This document shows, piece after piece, positions 35,575-54,900 of a stretch of 64,000 nucleotides of DNA. Below the pieces are notes generated by a model, which was not told where the DNA came from, ran no database searches, and saw only the letters and a list, made by a program, of their open reading frames with translations. The position numbers and the translations under genes were made by a program. Numbering within the stretch: position 1 is the stretch's first letter; each line of letters starts with the position of its first letter. The DNA comes from Macrocystis pyrifera (taxonomy: Eukaryota > Sar > Phaeophyceae > Laminariales > Laminariaceae), in contig JASSKH010000006.1 of assembly GCA_031763025.1 (NCBI GenBank), positions 15,217,479 through 15,281,478 on the forward strand, written 5' to 3'.

Positions 35575-38500
35575 ATGAAGTGCGCCGCTTTTCTGCTTGC
35601 CGGGGGGGCGGTATGCGCCCAGGCGTTCACGACGGCACCTCTTGCCTCGACTCGTACCTCCACAGCCGCCAGGGTATCTGGACTGCACATGTCGGCGACA
35701 TCGGAACTGCCGACCCAGGTGTGGTATATATAAACATGATACTGCTGTTTTGTTGTGTGTTGCGCATGTAGTGTTGTAGTGTTGGATATCGTTTGGGAAT
35801 CGAGTTCGATACGATACCGATACACCAAAAAAAATGATACGATTTCGATATTTTATACCAGGTACCAGGTATATACGTGCGATGTTTCGTTCAATATGTA
35901 CATTCGCAGTTAATCTGCTTTAAAAAACGGGAATGCCAGGAGATGAGGGCAAAGCACCATTGATACGATATATCGGATTCCAAATTTCGATAGGTCGAAA
36001 TGTCTGATACGATAACGAGATCCAATCCTAATTGGTACCGGTACCTGGTACCAGGTATCGTATTACGTACTGTAGTAGGTATGGTGCGCGCCGATGGAGT
36101 TGACGCTTGACGCATTCGCTGGAGCGATTACTGTTTGAGTATCGAAGTCTGCAACAGGCTGGTTAGTCACACCTACTATGTTCCGGCGCATACAAATTTA
36201 TCGGGTATTTGGTGCTGCTTTCCAGCCCTTTACTCGTAGCGATGGTTTTGTGATTTTGCAGTTGGTATTTGCTCTCGGTGCCTTACATAGAAAGGAACCG
36301 CCGCTAAGTTTAGTAAAAAAAATGGTATCAGATATCATGACATGGCTACGTATTGGCTGCTGCTGTACTCCAGCTCAAGGGTTGACCAGGTACAGCTTTG
36401 CAGCTTACAGCTTTACAGCTTACAGCTTCACAGGTTACAACCGATGAGTCCCGCGTCGGGGTCAGATGGCAAGCTCTTAAAACTAAAATAGCACACCCTC
36501 TGACGAATGTCACTGAGACTACTAATACTGATACTGATACTGTCACTGGGATCAAGCCGATTGTCTCGACCACGGGCAGGGTGCAAATTCCTCGGAATTG
36601 AGTCTACGGAAAGAAGTGGACACTGCTGTTGTTGTTGCCATTGTTGCTGCTGTTGGTGTGTGCCCTCCTTGTTTTGGATAAAAACGACCCCAAAATTCGT
36701 CCCAGGGGGGGAGTGCGTGTGTCGTCTGTACTGTTTTCTTTCGTGATTTATCATACCACAGACCAGTATAGATGGTACCAGGTATCATACCAGTACGACG
36801 TTGCGTTCGTTGCTTACATCAGCAGTACGATGGGGTGTCGGGGCAGTGTTGTCGACAGAGCCTCATGAGGAATCAGTACGTATTATTAACACTCTACTGC
36901 CGCAATAGTCTACTGCTGTAGTCTGAACATCACATTAGGCGAACATCCGAAGGCTATGATGATAAAAAATGCATAGTTCATCCGATTGTCAAGTGAAGAA
37001 CAATCTAGTTACCATCTTAAACGTATCTGAGCCTCGGATAATCACGATTTATCTGGCCCATTAACCGCTGGCCAGCTACTATATATTACAATAGTAACAA
37101 ATATAATGTTGTCTGTTCGCGTGTACTATTAATACCAGTCTGCCAGCACCGTTCCGTGCTGCATCTACGGTGATGGTATTCACGTTAGTTTTGTTTTTTA
37201 TCGGTGTACCGTCGTTTCTCCTTTCGCTTGGAGTTTTTTGGTTCTGTGACCACACGCTCGTTTCATTGGAAACCACCTTCCACCTAGCGTCCGGTTATGC
37301 ATCAGATTTTATACTTGTAGGCTGATCTTCGGCCAGCTTTAGTCGGAAAGACAGAAAAGCCTGATTTTAGGTTTTCCGAGCCGGTTTTCACAGGTTTTAT
37401 ACATAGGCGAGTTGTGTTTTTGATTTTGCGCCGATTTTAGGTGAGGCGAGCCTATTTCTATTTTCATCCCCAGGGGGCGGATTCCGATAAGTTACCCGTT
37501 TCTATTTCAACCCAGGCCTGCTGGACATGGAACACCCAACGTCTGCAGATGATATATACGCTTGTATTGTTGTCTGGCTTAGCAGCCAAGGAGGCCGACT
37601 ACGAGAATCCAAAGCCGAATTATCTCCCGTAAAAAAGTAGTTTTGGAGTCGACCAATTTTCAAAGATTTCTCCATGGAGTATGGAAATCATTGTGACAAA
37701 TGTCCTGTCGAATGTTGTCCCCGTTACGTTACCAACCCTAACACTAGCACTAGCACTAAGCCTAAGCCTAACCGTTAAGGACAAAACAACGTCGAATAAG
37801 GGTTAGGGTTAGGGTCAGGGTCAGGGTACTACAGCAGGCTCTCGGGCGGTTGGGCGGGTACTCACTTAGAATAGCCTCAAATACTCGCGAGTACCCGACT
37901 ATTTTCCAACGAGATTTGGCCAGTACTATTACGGAGGGCCATAGTAAATGGGACCAAATTTCGTTAGTAAAATTTCGTTAGTAAAAATCGGGAAATATAC
38001 GGGTTTTTGTGTGTACCGTAGGTGTTGTTTACTATGGCCCTCCGTAATAGGTGCCCGCAAGCTATCGCAGAGGTACAACTCTACAGCAGCAGTGACATGG
38101 AAGGGCAGTGATTACTACCTGGTTGTTTTTAGACGGAGCTTCACGGCAGGGAGGTTGCGTGCAGTATCATCACTATCATGTACTACGCACATACAGCAGT
38201 AGCAGTAGCAGTAGTTTTTGGCAGGTACCTGGTATACCGCCGTAGCATCGTAGGTAGAGATATTACGTACCTGGCGTGTACTGCAATCCTTACATCCGAA
38301 AGGCTATGATGATAACAAATGCATAGTTCATCCGATTGTTTAGTGAAGAGCAATCTTGTTACCATCTTTAACGTATCTGAGCCTCGGATGTTTTAGCCCG
38401 TGTCTTCGCTGTCATCAGTGCCAGTTTTTTCGCTTTGAACGAATAGAAAGTGGTAGCATGGGGTAGGGTATTTTTCAGTCTCTGCTGCTCTCCGGGGAGG

Positions 38501-41500
38501 CTCTCGGTGGAACGATAGTATGATGCTGGCAGTGATTACGTCGTATGTCGGCTTGAGCGATATGCTGGCAGGGTCTAATTCTCGTGCAAGAATGAACAAG
38601 TAGCTTACCCCCTCAAACCTTTTATGTTGACAGAGGTTAACAGTAGAGACGCACCGTAATAGGTATGATACTGCTGTCTGTCTGTCTGTCTGTACGCTGG
38701 GATATCCTTCCCACTATTTTTTGGCTCCGTGCGGGCTACAGGGTACAGCAGCAAGCGCGATTGAGCCCAACAGTATGTTGACAAATACTTATTGTTGTAA
38801 CCTGTACTACTGCTGTAACGGGTATGAACTCCACAGCAGTGCTGCCTTTGGGCTGCCCTGTGCGCTGCCTTTTTGTTTTGAAATCGTAGCTCGCATGACT
38901 TTGTTTTGTTTATTGTGCTGGCTGTAGGTGCCGAGTTTATTTTGTTGTCCACTTTTCTTTTTTTCACGACGGTGCGTTTTCCCACGGAGCCATCTCGACA
39001 GCACATCGATAACCGTGTGGTGCTAAATTTTGTGTTCAATACCACGGGCTGTGACGAAGCAAAATGCATAGTTCATCTGATTTTTCAGTGAAGAACTAGC
39101 CTTAAGCAAATGTCTTTCGCTCCTATCCGAGCTCAGATGAACGAACCTCATACAACACCCCCCCGTATTGCTGTAGCACTATTATATCAGGTACCTGGTG
39201 TGTTTTTTTTGTTGCCTTTCTGCGAATCACACGAGTAGCTGAACGCGATGCACGTTGAGCACCACTGAGGGGTTAATCCTGTAGTACTTACTGCGACCCT
39301 CCTGATCATTTTTGATATCAGTACAGGACGCTATTCATATCGTTTAGAAGGTGTGTGCTCCAGCACTTATGGCTAGGGTGGAAGGCCATTAATAGCATAT
39401 GGTTTACCAATAGCGATCAAGCGCGTGGGGGGCTGTGACGAAGAAAAATGCATAGTTCATCTGATTTTCAGTGAAGAACTAGTCTAAGCAAATGTCTTTC
39501 GCTCCTATCCGAGCCCCAACGAATGCGGCTGATTCAAGTGACCTCCCCTTCTCTGTTGTTTTTTTCGGCACCCGTCAGTACCGAACACAATGCACGCGGG
39601 ACAATGTTGCTGGTTCTGTGGGCAAGTTATGGTCGACGCGCTAGAATACTGACTACTGACTGTACGTGAAGTTTTTTTTTGGAAGGTTTCCTCAGCTTTT
39701 ATAGGGATCTCGTCGACGATTAGCACAAGACCAATCGTTAACAAAAAGCGGCCGAGCGCGTGGAGGCAGTGACGAAGCAAAATGCATAGTTCATCTGATT
39801 TTCCAGTGAAGAACTAGTCTAAGCAAATGTCTTTCGCTCCTATCCGAGCCCAAACGAACGAAGCTGCTTCAAGAGACCTCCGCTTCTCTGTAGATAGATT
39901 TTTCGGTACCCGCTATTACCAAACGCAATGCACGCGGGACGGGTCAACCCTCGCGGGTCAGGCTTGGCCGGGCCAGGCAAACGGTGACCCGACCCGACCC
40001 GTGATCATTAAAAAAATCCTGACCCGACCTGACCCGACCCAACCCGACCGGTGAGATTCCGATTACTCCTTGACCCGACCCCCGGGTTGGTATCATGACC
40101 CGTGAAGACCCGTGCCCTTTAAGGGCTTCTGCCGACACGTTAAATTGTCCGATTTCTCACAAAACTGAATGCATAGTTTTTTCTGGGAAATTCCTCAGTT
40201 TTATGGGATCTGGTGTACAATTAGCACGAAGTGATAATGTGACATGAAGCGGCCGGGCGCGCGTGGGGGCAGTGACGAAGCAAAATGCATAGTTCATCTG
40301 ATTTTCCAGTGAAGAACTTGTCTCAAGCAAATGTCTTTCGCTCCTATCCGAGCCCCAACGAACAAACCCTAGCCCATTTTATGCACCTTATCACTGTCTG
40401 CACTGTCTGCGCTGTGCATCCAGCAGTCCCCCAAAACGGTAGCCCTGCCTTGAAAAATCAGTCGTACACTGCTACACTGCTAAGGCGGGCCAGAGTATTC
40501 AGAGGCCATGATGGACCGAAAAACCACTTATCCCCTTACAGCAGTAGGTTTATAAGCCATATTTGGTTCTGATTGCTATCGTATGTAATAGCGAGAACGC
40601 AATGGTCGTGCTCAAGAGCAATGCCACTTAAGGCAGTGGAAAACCCGGTTCCTTCGGATCTTAAGCCTTGTTTTTGTGTCTGTTGTTCTAAAATTGGATT
40701 TTTTGTTGTCGGGATTCCGGTTTGAAGGTGCTTTACGGGAGGCTGCTATTAGTATTCTGGGCACTACGTCACCGCAGAATATTTCGATGTTGTGGCATTG
40801 ACGGAGAAGGCCGGGCTGTGACGAAGCAAAATGCATAGTTCATCTGATTTTCCAATGAAGAACTAGTCTCAAGCAAATGTCTTTCGCTCCTATCCGAGCC
40901 TGGCTGCTTCTCCATCTACCTCGAGTGCAATAACTCGAGTGCAATGATTGAGTGTTGTGTTCAAACCTTTTTGTCTCGTTTTTTTCTGTGTTTGTTTTTC
41001 GCGATTGACGTGTACTATAATAATTTTTGCGAGTATCGATCGCAGTCCGCGTGTTGACGTTCTTCTTCGAGGTGAGCAGATGAGTCCGAAGAAACATTAA
41101 AGGGAGGGGTGGGGGTGGGGCACTCGAGGTCATGCCGCACTTTTTCAAGACTGCTTGGCTTTTCGATCGACGGGGAATTTTTCTCTGAACAGTACAGACA
41201 GCATTAGGATTGCGATGAGTAGTCATTTTGATGCGTACAACGCAGAAGATCGTATTTGTTTTCGGTTTACTCTCATCTTAACCCCTTCTGAACCGCAGCC
41301 ATTCTCGTTTTTTTTCGGATCAAATGACCCGAAAATAGAGAGTTAGGTTTTTTCTTGCAGTGGTATTGAAATGAGTCTCGGGAGACAAACAGGACAATTG
41401 GCTCGATAGCGCTTGTGCCGGTACCGTTGTTTTCTGTTGTTATGGCGTCTATCGTATGTATCGTATGTTCGTATGTATCGTTTGTATCGTACCTGGTATG

Positions 41501-44500
41501 TGTCGTATGTATCGTATGTATCGTACCTGGTATGTGTACGGCCGTGTTGTCGGTCTGTAATTGTGATTGGTTGGGTTGATAGTGCCGGGGCCGTGACGAA
41601 ACGAAATGCATAGTTCATCTGATTTTCCAGTGACGAACTAGTCGAAGCAAATGTCTTTCGCTCCTATCCGAGCCCCGTAAGCGCTCTCGAACGTTCTCGT
41701 GTGCTTCGTGTATGATACCAGGTATGTGCGAAACGCCGATAGAACATGGTGACAGCCAACGGCCAAAGGAGTCTGCTCCGCTCTCTGTCGTACCCGTCCC
41801 CTGGATACGATGCGTGTTTTCTTTTTTTCGTTCTGTCGCTACACATTTATGGTTATACTGCCCAGTAGATCGAAAGGTTATTTCTCCGATACCGCTTTTT
41901 TGCACGCATCCAACGCCGCTCACGGGTGCGTCGTCTGGTGCTATTTTTCTCTCTTGGGCTGTGATTTGAATGATTGAGTTTGTTGCGATGGGTCGATGGG
42001 TCGAACGATTTTAGCCCGCGTGCTACGGTACGCCTTAAATATTAAATGCGGGTGCTGACCAAGCAACAGGCAGTACTCGTACTACTCGGTTTGCCGTAAC
42101 TGTCTTTCGTAAATAGTGGTAGGCTCGTAGCGTGGTTATTGGTGAGAGAGGCAGCACAGCACCATACCGGTATACCCGCAATCTATGGGAAGAAGAGCCA
42201 AGGAAAGCCTCTTTTGAGAATATCCTCAACATGCGCCAAGTTTTGATGGAGACGTCCTCGTGTTCGACATTTTTCGAATTCCGACGACCTCCTCCGTATC
42301 CAGGCCCAGCGACAGCAGGCGCTGTACGACATGGTGTACGTGGAGCGACTGCCCGAGGAGCAGCAGATGACCTCGGGGCTCTTCCTGCCTTCCAAGGCGG
42401 ACCCCAGGATGCACGTTTGCAAGGTATGTATGTAATGTAATATGTTAATGTAATGTGTAGAACATTCTGCCCGTCCGTGTAGCGTAACGTGCTCACCACC
42501 TTATCATATGCTCTCGAGCAGCGCGATTTTCTTTTCAATAGCGTTTCGGCTTCCCCCTAATTCTCCTACGTGAAGGTTTCTAGCGTGGTAAGAGTTTTTC
42601 CAGACGTTCGGGGTGGAGGCTACTAGTAGTTTTTGTACTATTCATTGCGTTTTTGGAGACGGTTCTGTTGTGTCTGCTTGGAGTATAAGTGGTACTGTAA
42701 GTATCATTGCTATTAATAGTGGTGCAGTTCAGTCCCGGGCATTCTCGTGTAGAGATATCATATCACACGTAGCGTGCCCGACAATGCCGCTGTGTTTCAA
42801 TTTCGGATCTAATTTGAGGTGATTGTACTATGCATGCGACCATGGGGGCCTAAGCAAGTGTCCCAAGTGTTTCTGAGTTCTCGTCTAAGGAGCTATTAAT
42901 AGCTGTAATCACTAATACTATTGCTGCCAATATTACTATTAGTTACCCCACCCACAAGCACTATTAGCTACATGTAGTATTAGCTACGATTACCCGCCTT
43001 CAAGAAAAAAGGAAAGTGCAATGGTTGACGAACAATGCCATGGCCCAGGTATACATCGACGCATACAGTAGTGTTCAAACACAATATTTAAGGTCGAGCT
43101 ACGTACACAAGAATTAAAGACTGAGGAGCCTTTTAATTTTGACAAGAAAAGTACAGTGCCCCTATATATCGTACATGAAACGCCTAACAATAAAAGGTAC
43201 AAGGTTCAGTTCTTCCTAGCTACAATACCTTGTCGAAGTGATGTCGTGCGCCACTGTACCTTTGAAACGCTTTTTTTTTTTTTTTTTTTGCACCGCCGAA
43301 GGCGAGAGGGCGGCATTTGTGTTCAGTCCTGGCGCAAACAGCAAAGAGCGGTCCAATCGTTTCTGCTGACGGACAGCGTGATATCAGCAATAGGCCGACC
43401 GTGCCTACCTCCCTCGAGTGTATGGCCGGTATGGCCGCCTAAAGGACTTATTTCTCTTGCAGCATCAGTATGCCACGTTCGAGCGAGGGTCGCGCAGGTG
43501 GCATAGCATGGCATGGCATAGCATGTACACTATATACCCTAACCTGAAAAGGGTTGCCCCTATGATAGCACCCCTAACCCTAACCCTATGTCATTTTTCC
43601 CGGAGGCGTTTTTCCACTCTAGAGTTATTGGAGGCTGTACTGTGACCACGGACCGGATTTTATTGTGGCGATGGGATAAGGCGAGAACACCAACGATATG
43701 AGGTATATGATGCATCATTTCGTTTCTTTACGGTCCTCTTGTTCTTTCTGTGTCCGGCCGGACGGCGTGTTGACGTTTTGCAGGTTGTGTCCGTTGGGAA
43801 TGGGCGAGAGGGAGAGAGCGGACACGTAACGCCAAACGACGCCGTTAAGCCGGGCGACCTTGTCTTCGTAAAAGACCCCTTCGGTATCGGTGAGTTCAGT
43901 CCCCTCTCTATGTTCCTACTGTTCTAGCATACCAGGTATATCAATAAACCAAAAGGGGTGCTTACTGCTACTGCTGTAACGGTGGTAGGGTGCATACTCC
44001 ATACACTCTGGATGTAAAGCCCCTACGTACGGTGTCGGTGCTTCCGTACGATCTCATCAGTTCACGGGTTTGTTCACGAGTGTTCAGGGTAGGTACTCTG
44101 GATACATTCGGGTATTAACTTGTATGTTTACGCGGGTTTGTGGGGTTTGTCGGAGAGACAATGTCATGTTTATGGCCTCTACAGTAGAACCATTGTAGCC
44201 CCTGGCGGGAGATGATTGTTGGAGCACAGACGGCAATTTGTTGGAGCAGGGAGTGCAGATTACCCGAGCGTAAGGCACTACCGTGGCTGTCAGCAGCCTC
44301 AGTCCATCCCCTAATGAATATTCACTATTTACAGTAGAAAGAAACACTCCATACGTCGGACAGATCAGATTGATCGTATAGATGATATAGATCCTAACGT
44401 GCCGATATGGTATGCCGTGCTGGATACAGTGCAGATCGAACCCAGGAGACATGTGCTAGATCATGCAGATTGCATAGTTTTCATCCAGGCAACTTGCAAT

Positions 44501-45152
44501 ACGAGGTACTGTAGATGATGCAGATGGTAGTGTATCTGCCCTGACATATGTTGATCATTATCTGTAGATGATCTGTAGATGTTCTATCCTAGACCTAAAT
44601 TAGTTCTATGATTCGAGCGTGGGGCCTGTGAGTTTGGACAAAAATCACCCAAACACAAAATCGATTGGTGCCCATCTTTGCACGCTCTGTGCGTGATACC
44701 TTTTTTTGTTCCATTGATGGTCGAGCGAAAGGGCGTGTTCCGCCTCTTTGGTGTTCGTTGTGTTGTGCTGTGCTATGCTGTCGTATTGGTGTTGTGGCGG
44801 CCCGTTGCAGCAGCCGTCTAAACACGCAGATACAAAGCAGGTACCTTTTTTTCTTTCGTCGAGCGAAATGGTGTGCTTCCTTCGTTGATTTTCAATATGC
44901 TGAGCTGTCGTATTTCCGTGATGGTGGTTGGTGCCTGGCTGGATGGCTGGCTGGCCCTTGCAACGCCCGTGAAAACGCGCAGGACCCCGGGACGACGAGT
45001 TCGCGGGGAAGAAGTTCTCGTTCGTCCGCATAACCAGCATCTGCGCGGTTATCCCCAACTCGAAGGAGTACGAAGATGCCGCGCGAGAAGCCGGCGCGTT
45101 GCAGGCGGAGATCGACAAGGCTGCCGGCGCTGGCAGCGGTCTCGTGTTTTAG
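35575..45152 (+). CDS. Plastid-targeted Cpn10 (GroES-type) co-chaperonin
   Basis: Lid of the plastid Cpn60 folding chamber. Four exons: 35575-35718, 42304-42423, 43784-43889 and 44983-45152. They total 540 bases, giving 179 residues and a TAG. Residues 1-20 form a signal peptide ending CAQA before FTTAP, the Phe motif of stramenopile plastid leaders; a Ser/Thr/Arg-rich transit part follows to about 48. The single Cpn10 domain (about 55-150) shows YDMVYVERLPE, the mobile-loop region MTSGLFLPS, VVSVGNGREGE and KPGDLVFVKDPFGIG, then an alanine-rich tail. Phases agree (0, 0, 1) with donors GTGTGG, GTATGT and GTGAGT. Least certain is the link from exon 1 to exon 2 across a 6585 bp intron: exon 2 begins after a CCTCCTCCGTATCCAG acceptor, but nearby AGs in the same phase are possible. 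That intron hosts eight C/D snoRNA genes. Confidence 0.9.
36947..37037 (+). ncRNA. C/D-box snoRNA, type d, copy 1
   Basis: C box ATGATGA at 36956-36962, D' box CCGA at 36982-36985, C' box GTGAAGA at 36993-36999, D box CTGA at 37027-37030. Terminal stem CCGAAGGC pairs with GCCTCGG (one bulged A). The D' guide GCATAGTTCAT matches the same 25S rRNA stretch as the type-c copies downstream. The D guide (ACCATCTTAAACGTAT) is different and its target is not recognised. Intronic, on the host strand. Confidence 0.82.
37727..37826. repeat. Interstitial telomere-like repeats, converging
   Basis: CCCTAA-type words (37727-37775) face TTAGGG and CAGGGT words (37799-37826) across a short spacer, giving an inverted arrangement. 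Shorter CCCTAACCCTAA tracts occur near 43560 and 51445. Confidence 0.75.
37929..38047. mobile_element. TA-flanked MITE, copy 5
   Basis: Starts TTACGGAGGGCCATAG and ends CCCTCCGTAA between TA dinucleotides. The changed tip (GGAGGG) is matched by a complementary change in the other arm. It also has a small internal duplication of AATTTCGTTAGTAAA. Located in the snoRNA-bearing intron. Confidence 0.88.
38296..38387 (+). ncRNA. C/D-box snoRNA, type d, copy 2
   Basis: C box ATGATGA at 38306-38312, D' box CCGA, C' box GTGAAGA, D box CTGA at 38377-38380. Terminal stem CCGAAAGGC pairs with GCCTCGG. The D' guide is identical to copy 1. The D guide differs from copy 1 at one base (ACCATCTTTAACGTAT). 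Target of the D guide unknown. Confidence 0.82.
39046..39134 (+). ncRNA. C/D-box snoRNA, snR60/SNORD80-like, copy 1
   Basis: C box GTGACGA at 39051-39057, D' box CTGA at 39077-39080, C' box GTGAAGA at 39088-39094, D box CCGA at 39127-39130. Terminal stem GGGC with GCTC (one G-U pair). The D' guide GCATAGTTCAT pairs with GUGAACUAUGC of the large-subunit rRNA. The D guide GTCTTTCGCTCCTAT pairs over 15 bases (one G-U) with AUAGGGGCGAAAGAC. By the rule that the fifth base before the box is methylated, the targets are the A and G known as yeast 25S A817 and G908 (from memory). Confidence 0.9.
39429..39517 (+). ncRNA. C/D-box snoRNA, snR60/SNORD80-like, copy 2
   Basis: C box GTGACGA at 39435-39441, D box CCGA at 39509-39512. 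Terminal stem GGGGC with GCCCC. Both guides are identical to copy 1. The spacer that follows is homologous to the spacer after copy 3, so the duplicated unit included flanking DNA. Confidence 0.9.
39764..39851 (+). ncRNA. C/D-box snoRNA, snR60/SNORD80-like, copy 3
   Basis: C box GTGACGA at 39769-39775, D box CCGA at 39844-39847. Terminal stem GGC with GCC. D' box CTGA and C' box GTGAAGA present; guides identical to the other type-c copies. Confidence 0.9.
39947..40135. repeat. GGGTC/GACCC-motif element
   Basis: Repeated GACCCGACCCG words with CCCGTGATCATT, an A-run, CCTGACCCGACC, GTGAGATTCCGATTACTCC and a closing CATGACCCGTGAAGACCCGTG. A similar element is at 50175-50440. Occupies the spacer between snoRNA copies 3 and 4. 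Confidence 0.75.
40266..40356 (+). ncRNA. C/D-box snoRNA, snR60/SNORD80-like, copy 4
   Basis: C box GTGACGA at 40272-40278, D box CCGA at 40348-40351. Terminal stem GGGGC with GCCCC. Guides identical; the linker between C' and the second guide has one extra base compared with copy 3. Confidence 0.9.
40810..40904 (+). ncRNA. C/D-box snoRNA, snR60/SNORD80-like, copy 5
   Basis: C box GTGACGA at 40818-40824, D box CCGA at 40894-40897. The terminal stem is longer and different in sequence: GCCGGGC pairs with GCCTGGC through one G-U pair. The C' region reads ATGAAGA. Guides unchanged. Confidence 0.9.
41586..41677 (+). ncRNA. C/D-box snoRNA, snR60/SNORD80-like, copy 6
   Basis: C box GTGACGA at 41593-41599, D box CCGA at 41668-41671. 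Terminal stem CGGGGC with GCCCCG. The C' box reads GTGACGA. Two changes lie between C box and first guide (AACGAAATGC), but the guide cores are intact. Confidence 0.9.
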
Positions 45153-46844: not shown

Positions 46845-47175
46845 GTCATCGACGCTGTTATCCATATGCAAGAAAATCCCCATTCTAAAGCTGTTCCTAT
46901 TACGGGGGTCCATAGTTAATAGGACCTATGATAAACACAAAAACCTATATATTTACCTATTTTTACTAACACAATTTGGTCCCATTAACTATGGACCCCC
47001 GTAATAGTAGGATGCAACTCACCCTTCAGGCGATTCGCCCAAAACCTCACGGCGCTTCGCGCTTGCTGCAAGCAATGTCTGCCCGGCCGGTGAAAACCCG
47101 ACGTGCTCCCTCTCCGCGTTGTAGGGATGCGAGGGTCTATGGTCATACGACCACGGCCATGCATAATAAATAATG
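46845..47175 (+). repeat. Poly(C)-linked dispersed repeat P, copy 4, interrupted by a MITE
   Basis: Left part GCTGTTATCCATATGCAAGA to about 46899, then the MITE 46900-47004, then the right part from GTAGGATGCAACTCACCC through GGCGCTTCGCGCTTGCTGCA and TGTAGGGATGCGAGGGTCTA to the end. It lacks the C-run at its 3' end. Confidence 0.85.
46900..47004. mobile_element. TA-flanked MITE, copy 6, nested in a P repeat
   Basis: TTACGGGGGTCCATAGTTAA at one end and its exact complement at the other. The interrupted host repeat reads GTTCC-TA-element-TA-GTAGGATG. The intact P copy at 63725 has GGTTCT-TA-GTAGGATG. That shows insertion at TA with TA duplicated and no other loss. Confidence 0.95.
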
Positions 47176-48927: not shown

Positions 48928-51900
48928 CTACTTTCCGCTTGGTGCAGCAGCAGCAGCAGCAGCAGCCCCACGCCCGGGCGTGGGCAGCAGCGGCCTCGCA
49001 GGTTGCGCGCCTAAACGGTGCGGGTCCATGGAAGCATAATACGGAGCTGGTGGGGGCCCTGGTGGGGGACCCGGCGGGGGCCCGGGGGGTGGCCCTCGCC
49101 GTCCTGCCCCGCCCGCGTACATTGGCCCCCCGCCTCTCACGGGTCCGTATGAAGGCAGCGGGGGCCCTCGAGCATGGTGGTGGCCGTGGTACGATGGTGG
49201 CTGCGGGCCCGGTGGGGGAACATACGCGCTCGCCGGCTGCTGCTGGTAGGCCGATGGCGGCGGCGGCTGGTAGCCCTGAAGCTGCGGCATGGGTGGCATG
49301 TGTGGGACGGGGGCCACGGGAGCCCCGGCGGGGAGCCCAGGAACTGGGGGCATCGGGACCGGATGGTACATAGCAGGAGTTTTAACGGCCGCAGCTCCTT
49401 GTTTAGACTCCCCCTCTCCCGTCTTACCGCCGGCAGCTTCGCCTTCACCTTCGCCTTCTTCCCGTTTCTCGTCGCTACCGGCCGCTTTTAGCTTAACCTG
49501 TGCGGAGTCCCCCTCTTTTTTGGCGCCGTCGCGTGAATCTTCGATTCGGCGGCGGCCCTCCGGGCCGTTGAAGCCCGACGTCCCAGATTCTTCTGAGCGC
49601 GTGGCCCAGTTGAGGCGCAAAAGCCTGCCCTTGATGATCAAGCACTGCGCGAGGGAGGCACGGCGTAAGGGAGGCAAACAAGCAAGCAAGCACGCGCGAA
49701 AACATGTTTTATCGGTTGGGAATCTGTTTCCATTCTTCCAGCGTTGCACCGGCAGCATTATCGGGGAGGCGGTGGCAGCGGCAAATATGTGAACGATCGT
49801 CTCAAATAACAAACAAATATTCACACTCAAAACACACGACAGCCCAAACTCCACGATCACGAACAAAAAAAGGCGCGGGCTGACAAATGACCCCCCCCCC
49901 CTTATGTTTTACTCCACCTTAAAACCAGCGCAGGAAGTTAGAACATTTTTTCTTCGTCAAGCTGGCCGTGGGCAGAGGATAGGTGCATACATACATGTAG
50001 CATGTAGTCTAATGTACTATTAATAATAGACTGATGTACTATTACGGGGGACCATAGTAAATAGGACCAAATATTGTTAGTAAAAATAGGGAAATATATA
50101 GGTTTTTGTACGTACCGTAGGCCCTGTTTACTATGGTCCCCCGTAATATTAATAATGCGTTTATGTATTTATATCAGGGCTGTTCACGGGTCGGGTCGGG
50201 TCGGGTCGGGTCGGATCGGGTCGGCAAAAGGGTGACCCGACCCGAGCCGACCCGACTCGACCCATGATATTTACAAAACTTCTTGACTATTACGGGGGTA
50301 CATAGTTAACAGGACCTATGGTATACATTAAAACCTATATATTTTTACCTATTTTTACTAACAAAATTTGGTCCCGTTAACTATGGACCCCAGTAATAGT
50401 AGGCCCGCGGATTGAGTCATGAACCGTGAAGAGCCCTGATATGAGTAGATTACTATATATTACTGTATATTACTATACCACCCTGATCGGAAATATAAGG
50501 AACGCTTGGTCTTCATCTTCATGTATAAATTATCCTTATATTTACGCCCAGAGTGGTAGCCCTTTTTGCCCAAAACAACCATGACTGACGGGGCTCCAGA
50601 ATTCTAACACCAGAAGACAACAAGCCATCAAGCCAATAAGGCATTAAGGCCTGCCTTGCTTGTCGCTGGAACATCATCTGAGTATGTTGACCGTCAGTCA
50701 GATTATTTTAATAAATATCTACGCCATGGTAATTTTTGGCTCGTCGGGTTGCATTTGCAGCTATCTCGAGGTCATTTTTTTTAGGGTGAGGTGAGGAAAA
50801 AAAAGAGCTACTTGTACCTGTAGAGCTCTTGAAATTCGTATGGTATTAATGGCCTCATAAACTATTCAATACTGCACGAACTGCTATCGTAGCCTGCATT
50901 GTGTGCTCATCTATCTACGTTTGTGTGTTGTGTGTCGTGTACGTGCCGGACTCACTGGTACTCAAACATGCCACGGGCCAAGCTCCAAGACTATGGGGGA
51001 AAAAACCAGCGTATGAAAAAAAGAACTCATGATCGTGCATGACATGAGAACCCCTCCCCCGCCCCCCACTCCACTTCAAACACCATGTGAAAGATTGTCG
51101 CACCTTGTACAGCTGTTCTGCCGCCGCCTCCGCCGCCTGCCTGGTGGTGAACTGCACGAAGGCGAAGTCTTTGCCGGGAACTATTCGGATGGAGCGCAGC
51201 TCCCCGAAGCTATAGAAAGCGTCGCGAAGGTCCTGAAAAACGACAACAGCCCACCCCCCGACGAAGCCCGAAGAAGCATGCGACGACAAAGAACGGTCCA
51301 TGTGTGCATCACAGAAGAGGCGTGCAAGAGGAGGATGCATCAAGCCAGGCAGTCTTGCGTCCGGGCAAAACCCTTCAGAAACGTACATACCACGTACATA
51401 CCCTATAGCTGGTCATGTTTAGTGTGGTTTTGCTTGCGTATAAACCCTAACCCTGGCATAACGCGTAACGTGTAACGCCTAACCCAGGGTAACTGTCGCT
51501 GGTGGATACCTGTACGTTAATATTTGAAGTAAATACAGTAGTGTGGTCAACTAGAGCGCTGGCGAAACCAATAACCCCCCCCACTCCCCCCGACGTTTTT
51601 GGGTCTGACATGTGACGGCTTCATTCACCCAGCTCAAAACGGGTCCCTATAGTGCAGACGGCCGTGCAAAAAACATCGTCAACATCCTTACCTCTGGCGT
51701 GATGTGCTCGGCCATGTTGCCGAGCCAGAGGCTGCTGATGCCCTCGTCCTCCGGAGGCTCCAGCTTAGGCATTTCGTCCTGTCTTGTCATCATCTTGGCC
51801 GCCACAGGGTCGTCTTGGCCGTAAAATCGGTCTCGAATGTTTTGGTTGGCCAAGGGGTCTGCCTTGTCTGTCGGCATCTCGTGCCTGAAAGATAATAAAA

Positions 51901-54900
51901 CAGACAATGGTTGACAATGGTCAGCGGTCATTAACAAATCCGAGTTGGGGGGGGTTTATGCATTTACTACGTGCTGCTGTACTCGTAGCCGCGAAGGTTG
52001 CTCCACAGATAAACTAAAAGTGTGTAAGCTTCCCCTTCGGGTTTAGGGGTTGACTTGATTTAAATCCCGGGGTGTCGCAAGCTGAAAAAGGTTAACACAG
52101 TCAGCAGGCGTTCGTTCTTCGTACATACCAGCTACTGTACTCGTACGTAGCCACCGGGCAAGAATGAAGAATATAAGAAAGCTCTTGAAAGTTGAAGAAA
52201 AAAACTAGCAGGCACAGCAGGGCAAGTTAGACCGACAAGCCCAAACGAGTTTGTAGATAATGTCGTTCTATATAGTGTATATATTGACTAGTGTGTAAAA
52301 CACAACTTGGTCCAGCTGGGACAAAAATGGTTGACATGTACAGTCAGTCCTCACTACAGCTCCACTCCAACAAATTTCCGAGAAATTTCCGACAACTTTC
52401 GAAGACGGTCGGGGTCAGGATCAGGGTAATCAAAACGATTGCAACCACTTCGTACACACGGCTGCGATGGTTGTTTTACAGTGCAGTTGGTGGAGAATCA
52501 TGCCCACCACATTCCCGATGCATTGAATCTCTCTCTGAACTTCTGGCTGGCACTACAGCTCTCGTGGAATGTACAGTATGTATCACTATTAATACCGAGC
52601 AACGCTCCCACTGACACCCTGGAAGGACAAGCGATGCAGGGGTCGAGCTAGACAGTCATGGATGGTAGCATAGCATAGCATAGCATAGCATAGCATAGCA
52701 TACGTACTCTATTACCCCAACGAGGGCTGAAATGCGTTTTTGACTTCCCTAACCGCAGATTTCCTTCCCTCCCTCCCTCCTTCCTTACCAGGGAATACGA
52801 GGCAGTCCATGACGGCAGTCGTCAAACGTGGGACGAAGGACGCTCTGAAGCTGCTCTAGCAGCACAATTCCGCGCGAGGTGGTCCCCTGACCCCAAGACA
52901 ATCGACGACCAACCCCCAACTAAGCACCCGCGGTACGCATCGCAACACCTCAGGCGTGCGCCGTTGTCCAGACGCTGCATAGAGATACGCATTGCAATGC
53001 CTCGAACATGCGCCGCCGTTCAGACGCTGCACGGCGAACGGCATCATCGCAACATGCAACATCTCAAACGTGTGCCGCGGTTCAAACGCTGTACAGCGAT
53101 ATATAGACATGGCAACACTTCAAACATTGTGCATACCCGATCTAAGCACTCACAATATGTACGGTAACACCTCAAACTTGCGCCGTCGTTCACATGCTGC
53201 ACGGCAACATGTACGCAGGCATTGCAACACCTCAAAACCTGCACCGTGGTGGAGACGATGGACGGCGATGCAACACTCACAGGAAAGGGCACTTGGCGCC
53301 TCGGTTGCACTCCCCCTTGGCGTAGAAGGAGCACTTGTGCGGCTGGTTGCGCTTGTAGTAAGGCGTCGACCGCGCCATGCGGAGCAGCTGCGGTACGATA
53401 ACCCATGCGCACGAGATAAAACACGTGTGCGACAAGCGATGCGTACGATAAAGCATGTGTACGACAAGGCATGTGTACGACAAGGCATGTGTACGACAAG
53501 GCATGTGTACGACAAGGCATGTGTACGATAGGCATGTGTGCGATAAGGCATGTGGCGCAAGGACGTGGGACACGGCATGCACCCAACAGGGAGGTATCGA
53601 CAGGAATACACACACGCGAGCCCAGCATACAGCAGTACACATAACACCAGTACCAGTACCAGTACCAGTACCAGTACCAGTACCAGTACCAGTACCAGTA
53701 CCAGTACCAGTACCAGGTAAAGATAGTTCGTCAACAGTCGCAAATGTTTCAAAATCCTACCGCCGCTGGCCGCTGTACAATACACTTACAACTTGAAAGT
53801 CTCAAGAGGTCAGCAGAACAGCAGGACGGCAGTACAGCAGTGCAATACTCGTACAGCAGTATCATCAAAAGTCGGCAGGACCGTAGCATAACTAGTGCAT
53901 GTGAACCAAAGGCCAACAGTGTAACAAACAGTATAGTATAAACGTTGATCAAGTGTAAGCAGTACAGCAGCAGAATCCGTACAGCTTAAAGGCTAAAGGT
54001 ATGAGGGAGTCAGCAGCATAGGTGTACAAGTTAACCGAAGGTCACGAGCACAGCAGTATAAGTTGGGGCAATATATCAGCAGCACAACAGCACAGCCGTA
54101 TAACTTGAACGTTTCAGACGATAACAAATAAACCAGTACAAGTCGAAGATATCAAGGCACAGCAGTACACTTGAAGCTATTAGCAGTACGGTAAAATTCG
54201 ATGATAATCGAGGAGCAGTTAAACCTCTGCGCGATAAAAATGAAGGCACCTACTGGGGGGGGAGAAGGGAAGGCATCTTGGACCAAGGGACTTCCAAAAG
54301 GCTGGAGAATAAAAGTAATGGTTACCCCGTTCAGGCTTTAAGGAGGCGCTACGGACTGCACTCCCGTTGTGGGGACATGTTACTTGGAAATAGAGTCATA
54401 TCTAGGTATATGTGCAGTGCAGTATTATTAAGAAAGGGTTAAAACTAAACACGCAACAGCGGTACGACATGTTAAAGGCGTCGCAGGCTCAGACACGGGT
54501 CAAAGGCGGCAGGCGCCCTGGTCCCGATGCATACCTTCTGGTTGAGGGGCTTGTTGCTGTACGGGTTACCCCCTTCGGCGAGTTGCTTCTCGTGAACCTG
54601 CGTCATGTACTCGCGGTTTGCATCGCTGCCGGGCACTTCCAGCCTGTCCTCCTCTGCTAGGAACTTGTCACGAACCTCCACGGGCAGCCCTGACAGCCAA
54701 CGTCAGACAACACGTCATGGAGGGGAACACGTCATGGAGGGGAACACGTCATGGAGGGGAACACGTCATGGAGGGGAACACGACCGGGTAGTTTTTACGA
54801 ACATCGTTTGCCGCAGCAGTAAAACCAAAGTCAGGCAGGCGGGAGTAGTACGTACCGGTACGTACACAAACACTACACCGGGCGGGCGGGCGGACGGGCG

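Follow-up and report, generated by a model that had tools for sequence, protein, structure and literature searches.

We analyzed a 64,000-nucleotide stretch of the genome of the brown alga Macrocystis pyrifera (assembly GCA_031763025.1, contig JASSKH010000006.1, positions 15,217,479 to 15,281,478 of the forward strand), referred to here as the window, with a GC content of 50.7%. It holds a predicted Cpn10 co-chaperonin gene, the first intron of which contains eight box C/D small nucleolar RNA (snoRNA) genes, all on the host (plus) strand. As judged from the sequence, these would be eight paralogous guides of the snR60/U80 family that arose by old local duplications and split into two-site and one-site guides, a reading to which we give a probability of about 0.8. 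All coordinates are window positions, and papers are cited under their PMC numbers. The host gene comprises the following features:

35575 to 35718, plus strand: Cpn10 exon 1, with the N-terminal presequence MKCAAFLLAGGAVCAQAFTTAP... and a GT donor at 35719
35719 to 42303, plus strand: intron 1 (6585 bp), GT..AG, in-frame joining, host of the array
42304 to 42423, plus strand: Cpn10 exon 2, in-frame joining
43784 to 43889, plus strand: Cpn10 exon 3, in-frame joining
44983 to 45152, plus strand: Cpn10 exon 4 including the stop codon, in-frame joining

The four exons (35575 to 45152), predicted from genomic DNA, splice in frame across GT..AG introns into a 179-amino-acid protein that matches the Pfam Cpn10 family with 41.1 bits (cut-off, 21.1) and has GroES co-chaperonins as its closest solved structures (E value, 5.4e-7). 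Its N-terminal end resembles the bipartite presequences that direct proteins into complex plastids, and the protein is probably plastid targeted. The N terminus also matched the cryptophyte antenna proteins ACPI-3 and CCPI-S, with E values of 0.82 to 0.93 from which we draw no claim. A preliminary description of this DNA had placed the array in a 6585-bp first intron of a plastid chaperonin gene; the gene and the intron were recovered as described, the plastid part being read from the presequence. With in-frame exons, GT..AG borders and a Cpn10 domain, the array has the form of an intronic cluster on the host strand. The end of copy 8 lies 632 nt from the 3' splice site. From box C to box D, the snoRNA copies, with their scores against the Rfam model snR60/Z15/U80 (RF00309), are as follows:

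36957 to 37030, plus strand: copy 1, canonical UGAUGA/CUGA boxes, A817-type D' guide, G908-type guide lacking, 39.1 bits
38307 to 38380, plus strand: copy 2, of the copy 1 subfamily (92% alike), 40.0 bits
39052 to 39130, plus strand: copy 3, UGACGA/CCGA, two guides, 58.6 bits
39436 to 39512, plus strand: copy 4, UGACGA/CCGA, two guides, 68.0 bits
39770 to 39847, plus strand: copy 5, UGACGA/CCGA, two guides, weak closing stem, 56.4 bits
40273 to 40351, plus strand: copy 6, UGACGA/CCGA, two guides, 67.2 bits
40819 to 40897, plus strand: copy 7, UGACGA/CCGA, two guides, longest closing stem, 61.2 bits
41594 to 41671, plus strand: copy 8, UGACGA/CCGA, two guides, C' box UGACGA, 58.7 bits

Boxes C, D', C' and D occur in this order and with guide spacing in every copy. 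A pattern of these boxes, written after inspecting the copies and accepting either pyrimidine at 3b and 3n of the kink-turn (k-turn), recovered the eight copies and nothing else on either strand of the 64 kb. RF00309 likewise matches all eight, six of them at 56.4 to 68.0 bits, above the gathering score of 41. The preliminary claim of eight C/D snoRNA stretches on the host strand was thus confirmed, and its expectation that a covariance-model search would score them all was borne out in that each copy is matched and fell short in that copies 1 and 2 stay under the cut-off. A covariance model made from the eight copies, which gives them 84 to 115 bits by construction, found no ninth copy across the 64 kb (next match, 11.5 bits). 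One candidate at 40149 to 40214, picked up through a common 11-mer, reached 8.7 bits and was rejected; matches to other Rfam families in the window were all under their own cut-offs, and a tRNA scan of the window found none. The gaps between box C-box D cores range from 257 to 1276 bp, a wider span than the 250 to 900 bp first reported. Two exact-pattern scans of viral contigs and a blastn search of plasmids with the region around copy 1 gave no related copies; these collections are not eukaryotic and are therefore silent on the distribution of the copies.

The D' guide word is present in all eight copies and the D guide word in copies 3 to 8, being absent from copies 1 and 2. Targets were sought in five foreign eukaryotic large subunit (LSU) rRNA sequences (L005 to L009), which are eukaryotic stretches in records titled as bacteria. 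Four loci from a first LSU rRNA pattern had no rRNA family match and were dropped; later patterns gave six loci, five with LSU rRNA and one (L010) without an Rfam match, which was excluded from the pairing tests. The small subunit rRNA is complete in two of the five loci and partial in a third. Copies 1 and 5 represented the D' guide, and copy 5 the D guide. Their LSU partners are GTGAA*CTATGC (D') and ATAGG*GGCGAAAGAC (D), the asterisk standing after nucleotide five from the box. The D' guide paired over 9 to 11 bp from the box in four of the five sequences, no duplex passing in L005; the 12-nt D' partner word is exact in L008 only, with deviations in L005, L006, L007 and L009. The D guide paired over 15 bp in 5/5, a result that is partly circular because the LSU retrieval pattern contains part of the Gm908 site. 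In all four sequences with both duplexes, the nucleotides at +5 are A (D') and G (D), 91 nt apart. The same distance separates Am817 from Gm908 in yeast, where snR60 is the assigned guide of both (PMC5199042), and Am797 from Gm888 in Neurospora, for which one snoRNA is listed with snR60 and U80 (PMC2780460). The guides of copies 3 to 8 thus appear to aim at the LSU rRNA equivalents of yeast Am817 (D') and Gm908 (D).

Core identity is 91 to 97% within copies 3 to 8 and 92% between copies 1 and 2, falling to 61 to 65% across the two groups. The preliminary description had spoken of essentially one snoRNA, each copy carrying two guides. The box order and the D' guide do hold for all eight; the Gm908-type D guide is confined to six, and the array divides into two subfamilies that differ in k-turn pairs and second guides. 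Copies 3 to 8 would be two-site guides and copies 1 and 2 one-site guides; lacking a Gm908 guide, the latter are filed as diverged paralogues rather than as members of the two-site group.

Copies 1 and 2 have a further feature of their own. Their stretch TTACCATCTT(T) can form 10 to 12 bp, counting G:U, with the rRNA word AAAGATGGTGA or the like in 5/5 loci. This word adjoins the Am817 target and has five nucleotides in common with the D' partner GGTGAACTATGC. In a test on a 31-nt LSU segment of L008, the pairing was equaled by 130 of 20,000 dinucleotide shuffles for copy 1 and 22 of 20,000 for copy 2 (53 and 32 of 20,000, respectively, with mononucleotide shuffles), and copies 3, 4, 6 and 8 formed 7 Watson-Crick pairs at most. 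In yeast snR13, extra pairing stimulates methylation and can overlap the guide (PMC5389607). Three considerations count against a role in copies 1 and 2: the five-nucleotide overlap means that the D' and extra duplexes compete and cannot both form fully; the pairing was spotted before it was tested, in two copies that are not independent; and extra pairing of yeast U18 was without effect (PMC5389607). It is possible that the extra pairing aids Am817-type methylation; we do not grade this as probable, because the partner overlaps the D' target. Alternatively, the D guide of copies 1 and 2 could have acquired a new target (another rRNA site, a small nuclear RNA or an mRNA) in place of an extra-pairing element. 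In favor, the D box of both is canonical and is preceded by a region conserved between them, but no D-anchored duplex of at least 9 bp was common to the five foreign rRNA loci, isolated matches occurring in 1/5 (copy 1) and 2/5 (copy 2), and we regard a new target as unlikely.

As to the origin of the array, two segments are duplicated together with their flanks:

39399 to 39602, plus strand: segment with copy 4 and its flanks, duplicated as 39734 to 39940 (copy 5), 85.6% over 208 columns
39659 to 39862, plus strand: segment with copy 5 and its upstream flank, duplicated as 40164 to 40366 (copy 6), 82.1% over 207 columns

Copies 3 and 5 are alignable over about 130 bp, while what copies 7 and 8 have in common with the others is approximately the snoRNA body (e.g., 40267 to 40354 versus 40813 to 40900). 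Most other flank pairs are at the random level in the multiple alignment (mean of 27% and maximum of 41% for 60 random window pairs), and the downstream flanks of copies 1 and 3 reach 43% in the same alignment. Old local duplication followed by flank decay would explain this pattern. The earlier suggestion of repeated duplication of a transcribed unit thus finds support in the 4/5 and 5/6 pairs, each shared over about 200 bp, flanks included.

Two other scenarios seem improbable to us. In one, each snoRNA would have its own promoter within the intron and the host gene would be incidental. Separate transcription of snoRNAs is indeed usual in fungi, and intergenic clusters are usual in plants (PMC11028025). 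However, no word of 6 to 8 nt recurs in more than four of the eight upstream stretches of 112 nt (a crude test rather than a promoter search), a run of four T appears in 4/8 downstream stretches of 60 nt (equally crude), and the upstream flanks can be aligned for few copies. In the other, copies would have spread by retroposition of the mature RNA instead of by segmental duplication, as might be supposed from copies 7 and 8, which share little beyond the body, and likewise from copy 1 versus copy 2. Here the common flanks, of at least 110 aligned bases in 4/5 and 5/6 and about 42 in 3/5, argue for duplicated segments, and old duplications in which the body is under selection would equally be expected to leave limits at the snoRNA ends.

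The reading as duplicated guides is also consistent with how the copies have diverged. Among copies 3 to 8, 1 of 48 columns in boxes and guides is variable, versus 9 of 31 in the rest of the core (Fisher P = 0.0007). In the three duplicate pairs, the core differs by 2 to 5% and the common flank by 19 to 33%: 3/87 versus 22/116 positions for copies 4/5 (P = 0.0009), 2/88 versus 22/110 for copies 5/6 (P = 0.0001), and 4/87 versus 14/42 for copies 3/5 (P = 0.00003). The terminal stem ascribed to each copy at the outset was found, with 3 (copy 5) to 8 (copy 7) contiguous pairs. Pairing of own 5' and 3' flanks beat swapped flanks in sum (74 of 40320 permutations were as good), individual swapped pairs being sometimes stronger than the own pair. 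With boxes, guides and copy-specific closing stems conserved and flanks diverged, the copies look maintained. We give least credence to the view that one or two functional copies suffice and that the others, the majority, are relics in decay, carried along in a large repeat-rich intron: variable closing stems (as in copy 5), non-standard boxes in six copies and repeats in the spacers would suit it, but boxes and guides are unchanged in 47/48 columns over those six copies, and common flanks differ several-fold more.

Several points weigh against the array being eight maintained members of the snR60/U80 family. Copies 1 and 2, at 39.1 and 40.0 bits, are just below the RF00309 cut-off, and the assignment of targets rests on foreign rRNA and not on that of the host. 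Gene conversion confined to the bodies could partly yield the same conservation. Covariation in the closing stems is weak, with shuffles as good in 22/500 cases for cells paired and in 39/500 for the covariation score. Finally, folding energies differ clearly from those of shuffled sequences only for copies 1 and 2 (z scores of -2.4 and -3.2), the other six lying between -0.35 and -1.84; unremarkable minimum free energies in these six are expected, since such RNAs have little internal structure. The 3' flank of copy 3 at 39133 to 39142 (TCAGATGAAC) is complementary over 10 bp to its own D' guide and box and dominates the predicted fold; should the precursor retain this flank, copy 3 may therefore inhibit itself.

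At the sequence level, all eight copies are compatible with a terminal k-turn: each has a C:G pair at -1b:-1n, a loop of 3 nt whose last nucleotide is U, and two G:A pairs. At 3b:3n, copies 1 and 2 have U:U and copies 3 to 8 have C:C (UGACGA with CCGA), followed in all eight by G:C at 4b:4n. Archaeal and human box C/D k-turns strongly favor U:U at 3b:3n (PMC5689011). In the Kt-7 k-turn, C at 3b allows metal-ion folding (PMC4382518), a rule that we carried over to the box C/D k-turns here. The guanines at 1b and 2n, which the k-turn protein contacts specifically (PMC5579392), are unchanged in the copies. We suggest, tentatively, that a paired change from U:U to C:C occurred in one lineage and was kept in six copies beside two U:U sisters. 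By the rule borrowed from another k-turn, C:C would fold more readily without protein, and the subfamilies would then differ not only in their target sites but also in how they assemble. Both U-to-C changes possibly arose once, before copies 3 to 8 split, and so count as one event. This proposal meets two objections: G:C at 4b:4n, which in box C/D k-turns works against metal-ion folding (PMC5689011), occurs in the copies here too; and L7 reportedly binds an archaeal k-turn less well when 3b:3n is C:U, though not when it is A:U (Kuhn 2002, via PMC6461891), so that C:C might weaken assembly. A text search, which misses figures, found no report of a C:C k-turn in snoRNAs; the one paper with UGACGA, box C and snoRNA gives UGACGA as a C' box. 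As far as our literature searches reach, a C:C k-turn in six copies beside U:U sisters therefore appears to be new.

Chlamydomonas reportedly has intronic snoRNA clusters. Clusters of this type are well documented, as are snoRNA families that multiplied inside a single host gene, in that case spread over different introns (PMC11028025, PMC8178906, PMC7671301). The array resembles snR60/U80/Z15 (RF00309) in its D' and D guides, spacing, Am817- and Gm908-equivalent targets, box order and terminal stem; it differs in its eight copies, in UGACGA/CCGA for UGAUGA/CUGA in six of them and in the missing second guide of the other two. A published table names both U80 and U77 for the Am817-type site but only U80 for the Gm908-type site, in a last column that we take to be human (PMC2780460); human U77 (SNORD77) and U80 (SNORD80) both lie in GAS5 (PMC6856654). 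The same division into a two-site and a one-site snoRNA within one host gene thus seems present there, although the introns of GAS5 house eight further snoRNAs beside these two, in contrast to one family in one intron here. No U77 model was among the Rfam matches listed for the window. Ostreococcus clusters 3 and 5 also have several snoRNAs per intron, but the snoRNAs of that alga are single copy bar three exceptions (PMC7671301), whereas all eight here belong to one family. The mammalian SNORD113 to SNORD116 arrays are alike in the local amplification of one C/D family, with subfamilies in SNORD115 and SNORD116 (PMC11028025); they differ in that those snoRNAs are orphans and occupy large tandem repeats at imprinted loci, set against an rRNA guide in a single intron here. 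No comparable array in a stramenopile or brown alga was found in partial literature coverage (including PMC4513859). In kind, then, this is a cluster of intronic snoRNAs from a known family; apart from the C:C pair and the array, it is an ancient and ordinary guide for rRNA. The word unusual in the preliminary description seems right for eight copies per intron and for that pair.

Among other features of the window, short elements resembling miniature inverted-repeat transposable elements lie at 37926 to 38050, 46897 to 47007 and 50039 to 50149. Their 23-bp terminal inverted repeats (CTATTACGGRGGNCCATAGTAAA) are similar, and single arms of this family occur at 747, 8915 and 9815. The arms give nine matches with up to three mismatches (chance expectation, none); those at 46897 and 8915 fall on Rfam matches, below threshold, to microRNA and HIV_POL models. 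The spacer 3' of copy 5 (39950 to 40110) is rich in GACCCGACCCGACC-type repeats, TATCGTATG / TACCTGGTATG repeats are found directly 5' of copy 8 (41450 to 41538), and TACCAGGTA-type inverted repeats occur also near 35850 to 36060. On the minus strand, 50915 to 53756 contains pieces of an RBM22-like splicing factor gene, with an RRM domain that passes its Pfam cut-off, plus a CCCH zinc finger that matches the RBM22 model best without reaching that model's cut-off.

Taken as an intronic array, the eight copies would be transcribed as part of the Cpn10 pre-mRNA. Each RNA would be freed from the intron, with the k-turn and closing stem defining its ends, and would assemble with 15.5K/Snu13, Nop56, Nop58 and fibrillarin. 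Copies 3 to 8, using the C:C k-turn, would direct 2'-O-methylation at both LSU equivalents of Am817 and Gm908; copies 1 and 2, with the canonical k-turn, would guide the Am817-type site only, possibly helped by the extra rRNA pairing. Their multiplicity may raise or buffer the supply of guides; dosage, the other explanation offered in the preliminary description, is possible. Two snoRNAs within one intron can give rise to snoRNA-ended long RNAs (PMC11028025), and the array raises the question of how one intron could release eight RNAs.

The array would also illustrate how a two-site guide can split into specialized copies within one intron. Provided that the C:C copies are functional, U:U in the C/D k-turn would be replaceable as a pair, which would bear on recognition by 15.5K/Snu13 and on the need for k-turns that stay unfolded until protein binds. 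Should the C:C reading be true, the two subfamilies would amount to a natural side-by-side test of the role of the U:U pair.

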